DNA of 64,000 nt from assembly GCA_018694115.1 (NCBI GenBank), contig JABHNB010000012.1, forward strand, positions 1 to 64,000, written 5' to 3'. Source of the stretch: an archaeon (GTDB taxonomy: Archaea > Nanobdellota > Nanobdellia > Pacearchaeales > GW2011-AR1). A program made the translations under genes and the position numbers. Positions 36,062 through 51,769 of this stretch are shown here, in pieces. Position 1 is the first letter of the stretch. Each line of letters starts with the position of its first letter. The notes under the pieces were generated by a model. It saw only the letters and a program-made list of their open reading frames with translations. It was not told where the DNA came from and did not search any database.

Positions 36062-36901
36062 ATGGATAATCAAGAATTTCTTAAGAAAATTGAAGTAGAA
36101 TTAAAAATTTCGAAAAATTCAATATACACCATTCGTAATTATCTTCGTGCGAACAATGATCTCCTATCCTTTGTAGACAAAACTCCAGACCAGATTACCG
36201 AAGACGATGTCAAGATGTTCATGGCCGAGAATCTTTCAGATAAGGCTTCTTCTTCAATTATATTGTTCTTGGCGGCAGTAAAATATGCTTATGTTTCAAT
36301 ATTAAAAAAGGACATAACTTCCTCGATAAGACGTCCAAAGAAAGAAAGAAGGATTCCAACAGTGCTTAGTAAGGAGGAAATTAAAAAACTATTCGGGGCA
36401 ATTAGCACTGCAAAATCAAAGCTCATGATATCTCTAATGTATGCTTGTGGGTTCAGAGTATCTGAATTAACAAGCTTAAAGATTAAGGATTTAGATTTTG
36501 AAGAAAGAATAGGGCACGTTCGTCAAGCAAAAGGAAGGAAGGACAGAATTTTTAATATCCCTGTTTTCCTCTTTAGCGATATAAAAAAATTGGCAGAGTA
36601 TCAGGAAGAATCCGGGAACGAACACCTTTTTACAAATCCTACAACCGGAAAAGGCCTTTCAACAAGAAACCTACAGAAAATGGTATCTTCTGCAGCTAAA
36701 AGGGCGGGGATAAAAAAAGATGTTCACTGCCATACTCTCCGCCACAGTTTTGCTACACACCTTCTAGAAAATAATGTAGATATAAGAAAGATACAGGAGC
36801 TTCTTGGACATGCAGATTTATCCACAACCCAAATATATACCCACATATCTACTGAAGAGCTCAAAAAAATCCCCAGCCCCTTGGATGGCCTGATGAATTA
36901 A
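36062..36901 (+). CDS. xerA: Tyrosine recombinase, archaeal XerA-like
   Basis: ACGFRVSELTSLKIKDLD, HTLRHSFATHLLENNVDIRKIQELLGHADLSTTQIYTH catalytic R-HxxR-H-Y. Confidence 0.9.
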   Translation: MDNQEFLKKIEVELKISKNSIYTIRNYLRANNDLLSFVDKTPDQITEDDVKMFMAENLSDKASSSIILFLAAVKYAYVSILKKDITSSIRRPKKERRIPTVLSKEEIKKLFGAISTAKSKLMISLMYACGFRVSELTSLKIKDLDFEERIGHVRQAKGRKDRIFNIPVFLFSDIKKLAEYQEESGNEHLFTNPTTGKGLSTRNLQKMVSSAAKRAGIKKDVHCHTLRHSFATHLLENNVDIRKIQELLGHADLSTTQIYTHISTEELKKIPSPLDGLMN

Positions 36902-49818: not shown

Positions 49819-49856
49819 ATTAAATTATCTGTCCCTTCTTCCCAAAAAATATAAAA

Positions 49857-49966
49857 TAGACAGCTTCGTGCGTTCCCATCGTTAGACAGTACAAACACGA
49901 ACATATCAAGCTTAACTTCTGAGTTCGGAATGGGATCAGGTGTAACCAAAATACTATGGCCGTCTA
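49857..49966 (-). rRNA. 5S rRNA, not adjacent to 16S/23S in this window
   Basis: Minus strand tagacggccatag...cctgatcccattccgaactcagaagttaagctt...gatgggaacgc...gctgtcta with terminal helix tagacggc/gctgtcta. Confidence 0.9.
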
Positions 49967-50049
49967 ATCATTGTAGAAAATTTCATTTTATAAACCTATC
50001 TATCTCCCAATAAATAAGCTTAAAAACAGGATTTCTGTTCTATGATTGC

Positions 50050-50133
50050 GAGGGAATGCCGGAGCGGTCAAACGGGACAGACTCAAGATCTGTTAGCTTA
50101 GTGCTTACGGGGGTTCGAATCCTCCTTCCCTCA
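50050..50133 (+). tRNA. tRNA-Leu (CAA)
   Basis: gagggaa/ttccctc acceptor, acaga-CTCAAGA-tctgt anticodon arm, long variable arm. Confidence 0.95.
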
Positions 50134-50187
50134 TTTCCGTAAGGAAATAGAGGAAAAGAAACTTTCAAAGAAAGTTACTTCCCTCAT

Positions 50188-50263
50188 GCCCTTGTAGCTC
50201 AGTTTGGATTAGAGCACGTCCCTCCTAAGGACGGGGTCGCAGGTTCAAGTCCTGTCAAGGGCG
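50188..50263 (+). tRNA. tRNA-Arg (CCT)
   Basis: gcccttg/caagggc acceptor, cgtcc-CTCCTAA-ggacg anticodon arm, ggttcaagtcc T-arm. Confidence 0.95.
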
Positions 50264-50603
50264 TTTCAGACTCGAACCAAGACTGTCGCAGGCGAACAAT
50301 TCGCTTCGAGCAAAAATCTTGGTTAAATTAATTTTGAGAGATGCAAATTGTGAGTAAAGTCCTGTCAAGGGCGTTCAATAGATTAATTAAGCTTAAAAAC
50401 CCCTTATCATTATCAAAATCATGCGTGGGTAGTTCAGTGGTAGAATAACTGGCTTCCAAAATCTTCTTTGAAGAGACCAGTTGACCGGGGTTCGAGTCCC
50501 CGCCCGCGCATTTTCTAGGGACGAGAATTTCGAGTCTGAACAATTCGCTTTGAACAACTAAACCCTAATTTTGTGAGATGCAAATTGTGAATAGCCCGCG
50601 CAT
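50247..50603 (+). repeat. tRNA-3'-end duplications with related spacer elements: 50247-50265 = 50357-50375 (19 bp); 50502-50511 = 50594-50603 (10 bp)
   Basis: Identical sequence; the two spacers share gaacaattcgctt(c/t)ga(g/a)caa ... gagatgcaaattgtga. Confidence 0.9.
50423..50510 (+). tRNA. tRNA-Gly (TCC) with about 17-nt intron (about 50459-50475)
   Basis: gcgtggg/cccgcgc acceptor; actgg-cTTCCa[aaatcttctttgaagag]a-ccagt; intron at canonical 37/38. Confidence 0.9.
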
Positions 50604-50641
50604 CCCCAAACTCTTATAACTTTAAACTCCCTATAATTTCC

Positions 50642-51769
50642 ATGTCAAAAAGGCTACGAAAGATCTTATCAGAAGAACCAATCAAAACCCCTGGAAGTCC
50701 ATTCTGGAACGTTTTCAAAAGATTCGGGCGAGATGAAGTGATAGCAATGATCATTAATGTTGTTGGGACCACCATTGCAGGGTTCTACCTCACATCTGCA
50801 TTTCTTCTTTCAATTATCGGTCCGATAATAGAAAAGTTAGGGTTTTTCCCCGCAAATTTTTTAGAATCCTTCAAAATATATAAAACAACTCCCAAGGAGA
50901 AAAGGAAATCAAAATCCCACTACTTCAAGGGAGGTCTCAAACGGGGAATGACAAGCCTAGGAGAAGATATCCTTATCCATGATCTGCTGTACATCATCCT
51001 TCTCTTTACGGGACTAAAAGTTTATCCTGCAATCCCTATTTGGTTACTTTCTGCTTCTAGCTTCATAATTGCTGTCTTTTTGGTTTCCTTAATTGAGGTC
51101 ACCATAACTGAAATAAGATATATTGGTTTCAAAAAAAGGATGGCCTATGTGGGATTTAAACCAGAAAATTATATCGAAACAAGATTCCTTATTAGTTCTG
51201 AGAAAAAACCTAATGAAATCTTAGACAAGCTTGCAGATCATTTTGACTTGGATATTCGAGAGTTTCTAAAATATGAGGACCTATACTTCGATAGCAACTT
51301 TCCTCAATTCTCTGGAAGAAAAGCAAAAGTTAGATTAAGAAAAAGAACAAATACTGAAGGAAAAGGATGGTTGAAAACTGCTCAAGTAATTTACACCAGG
51401 GCAAGAGAGAGTCAGCAAAAGAAGGATCAATTTAGATTTTTTCCAATAAAGAAAGAAAAATTCTACTTTTTCCTGGATCAGAGAATGCCCAAAAAGATTT
51501 CTAAAATAGAAAATTCAAAAATTAGGAGATTTTTAAAATCTTGTGAGACGGTTCCAAAAAAGAAGATCCTCTTTGAAAGATCCATTGCAAGGAGTGAGGC
51601 TTTATTGGCATCAGTAGATAAGCCCCTTAAGGGACGAGATTTCTTTATTCTAGAGCTAAAAACAAGGAATGACACAAAACTTCTTGTTGAAGCAATGAGG
51701 TTTGCAATGCAAGAGTTCCCCGTACTCCAAACTACAAAAGGCAAATCAGATATTGCAATATTATCCTAA
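50642..51769 (+). CDS. Membrane protein with C-terminal CYTH-like domain
   Basis: Two or more TM segments then YIETRFLISSEK...KVRLRKRTNTEGKGWLKTAQ...FILELKTRND. Confidence 0.6.
   Translation: MSKRLRKILSEEPIKTPGSPFWNVFKRFGRDEVIAMIINVVGTTIAGFYLTSAFLLSIIGPIIEKLGFFPANFLESFKIYKTTPKEKRKSKSHYFKGGLKRGMTSLGEDILIHDLLYIILLFTGLKVYPAIPIWLLSASSFIIAVFLVSLIEVTITEIRYIGFKKRMAYVGFKPENYIETRFLISSEKKPNEILDKLADHFDLDIREFLKYEDLYFDSNFPQFSGRKAKVRLRKRTNTEGKGWLKTAQVIYTRARESQQKKDQFRFFPIKKEKFYFFLDQRMPKKISKIENSKIRRFLKSCETVPKKKILFERSIARSEALLASVDKPLKGRDFFILELKTRNDTKLLVEAMRFAMQEFPVLQTTKGKSDIAILS

Follow-up and report, generated by a model that had tools for sequence, protein, structure and literature searches.

Introduction

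tRNA genes are classic landing sites of mobile DNA, and the small inserts analysed here bear on an open question, namely how archaea came to have tRNA genes that are disrupted, split or interrupted by introns. Several described systems show partial resemblance to these inserts. Mitochondrial GC clusters are mostly intergenic and are flanked by duplications of 2-3 nt (AG or ACT) (PMC4478555, PMC2800124). Casposons of Methanosarcina mazei and Aciduliprofundum boonei insert at the 3' ends of tRNA genes and are bordered by direct repeats (PMC6977970), and archaeal tyrosine integrases cut at tRNA loop borders and use the 3' parts of tRNA genes or, for the pTN3 type, the 5' half (PMC8371274). For archaeal tRNA genes, a tRNA-Thr case with a 1.9-kb element carrying a putative recombinase gene has been described, as has tRNA intron gain by transposition (PMC3293823).

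The window, the whole 64,000-nucleotide stretch that was analysed (contig JABHNB010000012.1 of assembly GCA_018694115.1, lineage GW2011-AR1 of the Pacearchaeales), contains three consecutive tRNA genes followed by inserts of tens of bp that carry neither an integrase nor any other gene; two of them contain a hairpin that we call E1. E1 comes closest to MITEs and to mitochondrial hairpin elements that carry no genes (PMC4478555). Like the palindromic GC clusters of yeast mitochondria and the mitochondrial double-hairpin or repetitive hairpin-forming elements, E1 measures tens of bp, forms a hairpin and is dispersed; both are also polymorphic at orthologous sites, fuse into composites and have an unproven mobilising enzyme (PMC4478555, PMC2800124). 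Unlike the GC clusters, E1 lies at tRNA arms, and the tRNA end copied beside it is 10-37 nt long or longer. MITEs share with E1 a short, non-autonomous and gene-less makeup, terminal inverted repeats, border direct repeats and many copies, whereas E1 has in addition an inverted copy of its target, and its repeat begins at a tRNA-arm position. Casposon duplications are 14-15 bp long at the very 3' end, in contrast to the variable repeats of E1, which mostly start from the T-loop. Tyrosine-integrase islands (SSV1, pTN3, pT26-2) also break in tRNA loops, leaving the tRNA whole and a fragment at the far side, and the 3' and 5' classes of insert parallel the pT26-2 and pTN3 island types, respectively (PMC8371274); unlike these islands, the inserts are gene-less, have periods of 40-110 bp, show the same element at nearly all isotypes and include the inverted T-arm copy. 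The archaeal tRNA disruption case resembles E1 in having insertions in or beside tRNA genes, differences within populations and tRNA fragments left behind (PMC3293823), but the E1-type inserts are gene-less hairpins at many tRNAs and not a 1.9-kb element. BHB introns and the mitochondrial elements are set apart from E1 here by description, not by formal criteria. A published description of these inserts was not found in the literature searched, whose coverage largely left out subscription papers and preprints.

Within a lineage, dozens of tRNA genes hold small inserts whose junctions can be read; some copies form arrays, a few lie inside tRNA genes, and alleles with and without an insert exist. 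The system therefore makes models of tRNA-gene disruption testable.

Results and Discussion

Three tRNA genes with inserts in the window

The sequence-only reading had reported that the Leu, Arg and Gly tRNA genes are each followed, beyond a spacer, by a second copy of their own 3' end, and all three repeat pairs proved exact and correctly placed.

50050-50133, plus strand: intact tRNA-Leu(CAA) (ARAGORN; Rfam RF00005, 54.3 bits)
50125-50134, plus strand: direct repeat CTTCCCTCAT, copy 1, Leu 3' end (repeat family D10)
50135-50177, plus strand: Leu insert, not E1, with an antisense variable-arm/T-stem stretch TTTCCGTAAG and a small hairpin AACTTTCAAAGAAAGTT
50178-50187, plus strand: direct repeat CTTCCCTCAT, copy 2 (family D10)
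50188-50263, plus strand: intact tRNA-Arg(CCT) (ARAGORN; Rfam RF00005, 63.7 bits)
50247-50265, plus strand: direct repeat AAGTCCTGTCAAGGGCGTT, copy 1, from T-loop position 57 to just beyond the Arg 3' end (family D3)
50269-50278, minus strand: inverted T-arm copy GACTCGAACC, 9 of 10 positions antisense to the Arg T-arm (sequence comparison)
50285-50292, plus strand: GTCGCAGG, sense copy of the Arg variable-loop/T-stem 5' strand, immediately 5' of E1
50291-50356, plus strand: E1 hairpin of the Arg insert (covariance model R1, 73.6 bits, E 4e-14)
50357-50375, plus strand: direct repeat AAGTCCTGTCAAGGGCGTT, copy 2, abutting E1 with gap 0 (family D3)
50423-50510, plus strand: tRNA-Gly(TCC) with an intron after the anticodon (Rfam RF00005, 60.2 bits)
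50502-50511, plus strand: direct repeat GCCCGCGCAT, copy 1 (family D11)
50512-50534, plus strand: spacer between tRNA-Gly and E1 (I1), including a sense T-loop-like stretch TTCGAGTC
50535-50593, plus strand: E1 hairpin of the Gly insert (covariance model R1, 61.2 bits, E 3.8e-11)
50594-50603, plus strand: direct repeat GCCCGCGCAT, copy 2, abutting E1 with gap 0 (family D11)

The tRNA-Gly gene was missed by ARAGORN and detected by Rfam; across window positions 50000-50700 only tRNA reached the gathering score in Rfam 15, and E1 had no Rfam match. Homology between the Arg and Gly spacers (93% identity over 28 nt, 90% over 20 nt) shows that they are copies of one element, not unrelated spacers. 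The Leu insert (i6) has no match to E1, and comparable hairpins follow tRNA-Leu in congeners. At the Arg locus the copied part of the tRNA exceeds the visible 3' repeat, extending to a piece of the T-stem 5' strand and the inverted T-arm copy, and the same arrangement of GTCGCAGG before E1 is present in the Arg orthologues of two congeners, G003 and G015. A single block duplication behind all three loci is ruled out, as had been argued, because both the periods and the break points differ. A CRISPR-like arrangement, with the tRNA end as repeat and E1 as spacer, was likewise rejected because the inserts are mutually homologous and Cas1 is absent.

A lone 5S rRNA gene (49855-49967, minus strand) adjoins this tRNA cluster and is divergent from it; in the congeners G001, G005 and G006, 5S lies downstream of tRNA-Arg in the same direction.

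Copies of tRNA ends across the genome

A search over all tRNAs of the window's genome found the pattern to be wider than the three reported cases, with 13 of 39 tRNAs having a copy of at least 10 nt of their own 3' end 15-200 nt downstream, compared to 0.07 expected from 100 dinucleotide shuffles, in which the maximum was one such tRNA. Copies of at least 12 nt follow nine of the 39 (0 expected), and the mirror image, a copy of the 5' end upstream of the tRNA, occurs at four (0.09 expected). These counts are far above the shuffles, and the pattern is therefore real and genome-wide, including the 5' class; chance is ruled out as its origin. An assembly artefact is ruled out as well, since the same architecture occurs in congeners from separate metagenome projects (GTDB records). 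Among 146 distinct tRNA loci, a sample enriched for E1, 66 had a 3' duplication and 22 a 5' duplication, and about half of the inserts at the duplicated loci were E1, the remainder being other hairpins. Neither duplication was present at any of 30 tRNAs of G149, an E1-free relative from the same family whose genome is 95% complete.

Structure and distribution of E1

Aligned copies define E1 as an element of about 65 bp, GGCGAACAATTCGCTTCGAGCAAAA...TTTTGCGAGATGCAAATTGTGAGTA, that is gene-less, ranges from 58 to 78 bp and has paired ends (n=32 aligned copies). Base pairing between its halves gives a single imperfect hairpin in which G-A/A-G, C-A and T-T mismatches are conserved, and the apical stem varies freely in sequence while its pairing is kept. 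Two-sided changes affect 15 of the 18 pairs, with 93% of cells paired; none of 500 shuffles scored as high, and slid-alignment controls scored far below. With the covariance model, about 140 copies were detected across 16 of 17 congeners, and four other genera of the same family also have copies; outside that family, 382 sampled genomes of the phylum gave no hit. Scanning 85,488 species with a strict pattern recovered E1 solely from MAGs carrying the labels Pacearchaeota, Nanoarchaeota or unclassified archaeon, which places the window in a DPANN archaeon of this group. Eleven matches in viral contigs consisted of half the motif (chance half-matches) and had no tRNA, and a viral origin was rejected.

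Covarying pairs, together with one-sided changes in which G-U is more frequent than A-C, would suit inserts that are selected as pre-tRNA processing or regulatory structures, the second 3' strand competing for the 5' acceptor strand. The sequence-only reading had offered such a processing or decoy arrangement as an alternative, and when the whole Leu, Arg and Gly stretches are folded to minimum energy, the 5' acceptor strand does pair with the second copy; such thermodynamic pairing would allow an effect on pre-tRNA folding. As the reason for the structures, such a role is unsupported and appears quite improbable to us. A hairpin recognised as single-stranded DNA would also show stem covariation, and the inserts are lineage-specific and polymorphic: only about one third of the genome's tRNAs have one, the orthologous loci of close relatives lack them, one locus hosts differing hairpin families, no copies occur in the E1-free G149, and one E1 copy sits at the end of a protein gene, alaS.

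In the genome labelled G063, contigs C3 and C5 (L174-L193) hold 24 E1 copies, nearly all on one strand per contig (12 of 13 plus on C5, 7 of 7 minus on C3). A replication-strand bias was considered for this pattern and set aside, the composition skew of the pieces being too weak to assign a leading strand.

Inserts are framed by copies of the target tRNA

Inspection of 93 distinct E1 copies, a biased sample in that the loci were collected by similarity to E1, placed 72 within 250 nt of a recognised tRNA. The majority (58) followed a tRNA 3' end and pointed away from it, eight preceded a 5' end and also pointed away, five pointed toward the tRNA and one lay within a tRNA call. For the other 21 no tRNA was called nearby; about ten of these are in G063, where no clear duplication was seen in the flanks of the tRNA-less copies. 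A direct repeat of at least 9 nt whose outer copy starts no more than 6 nt from the right border of E1 was present at 64 of the 93 (42 at gap 0), compared to 24 of 493 control positions. The length of the flanking repeat varies from 9 to 45 nt, and the repeat mostly begins in the T-loop.

Read in order, the layout is the whole tRNA, its own T-arm as an inverted copy, the T-stem 5' strand in sense, E1, and the tRNA from about position 57 outward; it is common to other insert families too, including the small Leu-type hairpin. The break point inside the tRNA arm varies between loci. In 42 of 49 cases the inverted T-arm copy resembles the T-arm of its own tRNA more closely than those of other tRNAs, which shows that it derives from the target. 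Together with the sense copy it makes up, at several loci, a near-perfect palindrome that adjoins E1, for example GTGCTGACGTCAGCAC.

Such palindromes before E1, short inverted copies with microhomology (for example the TGA junction at the tRNA-Met locus L051), and array growth by identical units, as at the tRNA-Val of G006, could be products of slippage and short-range template switching at tRNA hairpins, with E1 spread by inter-locus recombination and no dedicated mobility. We consider this unlikely, because generic error does not predict that the arms and mismatches of E1 are conserved across five genera or that its orientation is consistently away from the tRNA (66 of 93).

Filled and empty sites, arrays and unusual positions

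Comparison of orthologous tRNA loci with and without spacers, suggested by the sequence-only reading, revealed both states among congeners. The tRNA-Arg(CCT) locus is filled by E1 in G000, G003 and G015, holds other hairpins in G002, G006, G011 and G014, and is empty in G001, G004, G005, G009, G010 and G016; the Arg-Gly intervals of G003 (filled) and G010 (empty) align across the site, including to the right of E1. At Val, Gln, Ile, Met and Gly tRNA loci, two or three units stand in tandem.

These observations, together with the element family itself, its structure, its dispersal over isotypes and genomes and the layout of the inserts, lead us to conclude that E1 is very probably a non-autonomous mobile hairpin element targeting tRNA-arm sequences. 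Minimal tRNA-targeting elements had been one of the earlier proposals, and it is well supported by a structured family with dozens of tRNA targets of many isotypes, by presence and absence at orthologues, by the tandem arrays and by the lack of duplications in E1-free G149. GTTCRA, a T-loop sequence, probably serves as the target, and E1 as well as several unrelated-looking hairpin families appear to insert at tRNA arms, mostly in the T-arm in sense and sometimes in the D-arm in antisense.

Insertion also occurred at a protein gene. In alaS of G010, identified by C-terminal sequence motifs and not by family search, E1 (L199, G010:C2:5202-5270) lies near the 3' end of the gene in a T-loop-like GTTCGAA, within the codons of the conserved AGVRRI motif, whose DNA, GCAGGAGTTCGAAGG, closely resembles a T-arm. 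Beyond E1 the final codons of alaS recur, leaving the end of the reading frame present twice. T-loop-like DNA therefore suffices and tRNA identity is not needed, and this case speaks against the structure having arisen for tRNA processing.

Junctions read by eye show that E1 also occurs within tRNA genes, namely in a tRNA-Ser of G003 and in the second member of a tRNA-Cys tandem of G002, near position 26. It lies between the D-stem and the anticodon stem in that tRNA-Ser (L101, G003:C5:122441-122506), in the tRNA-Cys copy (L104, G002:C4:136725-136790) and in a tRNA-Ser-like fragment (L208, G002:C6:71693-71758). At L097 (G003:C5:62497-62736), E1 halves flank a whole tRNA-Ser inside a broken tRNA-Ser, and a second E1 follows.

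Candidate mobilisers and a proposed mechanism

No mobilising gene was found linked to E1, excision was not observed, and no gene-bearing element with E1 ends was present at the 93 inspected loci or in viral contigs. Tyrosine recombinases (PF00589), mostly XerA-like, are encoded in 19 of 20 genomes; the sole genome without a match, G001, is also the sole E1-free congener and is only 69% complete. The association between this enzyme and E1 is weak because XerA-like enzymes are expected in archaea anyway. In the window, a XerA-like tyrosine recombinase of 279 aa is encoded at 36062-36901, and genomes rich in E1 encode tyrosine recombinases of about 400 aa. Three other enzymes were rejected as general mobilisers because their presence is inconsistent across the 20 genomes: Cas1 (PF01867), the casposase type, occurs in only one and is absent from the window's genome (82.7% complete); the Y1 transposase (PF01797) occurs in eight, which include neither the window's genome nor most carriers; and reverse transcriptase (PF00078) occurs in four and is absent from most carriers.

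E1 lacks at least one defining feature of each of the MITE, casposon, IS200/IS605, retroelement and tRNA island classes. For MITEs these are a target site duplication of fixed length (9 to 45 nt here) and an autonomous transposon sharing the ends; for casposons, a Cas1-type casposase in the genome; and for retroelements, a reverse transcriptase in the carriers. IS200/IS605 elements, including REP-like ones, would call for a Y1 transposase in the carriers and no target duplication, whereas most E1 copies have a border repeat. For tyrosine-recombinase integration the enzyme is present in the carriers and missing from the element.

The likeness to attL and attR sites noted in the sequence-only reading holds for the geometry, with breaks at tRNA-arm loops, and stops at the inserts, from which an integrase is absent. 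Degenerate integrative islands that had lost their interior and left att duplications would account for direct repeats of tRNA 3' ends at att-like positions, for the preference of archaeal tyrosine integrases for tRNA 3' parts, or the 5' half in pTN3-like enzymes (PMC8371274), and for the widespread tyrosine recombinases. This origin is nevertheless highly improbable, given that a uniform structured element of about 65 bp over many isotypes is unlike the leftovers of random deletion, that complete units stand in tandem arrays, that att-site recombination would not give an inverted T-arm copy, and that viral contigs contain no full-length E1-bearing parent.

For E1 as a mobile hairpin, mobilisation would occur in trans, most plausibly by a tyrosine recombinase, because tRNA loops are the usual crossover sites of that class; the use of tRNA 3' parts or the 5' half by known integrases fits the T-arm and D-arm classes of insert. 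Judging from the junctions, insertion may be coupled to a local re-duplication that restores the tRNA gene by template switching or foldback, since plain strand exchange yields neither an inverted copy nor a variable repeat length. Each insertion leaves the tRNA gene whole on the inner side of the element and a second copy of the tRNA's outer end on the far side, with an inverted T-arm copy forming a palindrome before the element; selection against tRNA loss would keep only the duplicated products. The specific enzyme and the rescue step, taken jointly, are put forward tentatively and with considerable doubt. If a host recombinase moves these hairpins, E1 would be a very small mobile element, scarcely more than a recognition hairpin.

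It is conceivable, though we lean against it, that one common system inserts gene-less hairpins of several families at tRNA-arm loops and rebuilds the target by foldback copying. If so, an essential gene would survive every insertion, by a route unlike both classical transposition, with its fixed duplication, and conservative site-specific recombination.

Other insert families

The 5'-class loci C13:118041-, C8:23144-, C4:297- and C11:118596+ of G000 (L043, L049, L056 and L048, respectively) have copies of 10-18 nt of the tRNA 5' end, 54-65 bp upstream. A second hairpin family, TGAAAC...GTTACT (antisense), occurs at loci of this class and is common to G000 and its congeners. At L058 (G000 C8:25049-25166) and L064 (C6:13658-13728), which have no copy of a tRNA end, the tRNA is followed by a T-arm palindrome and then by a common motif, CCCGAAGGGTACTTRCGAAGYGC, that perhaps marks another hairpin family.
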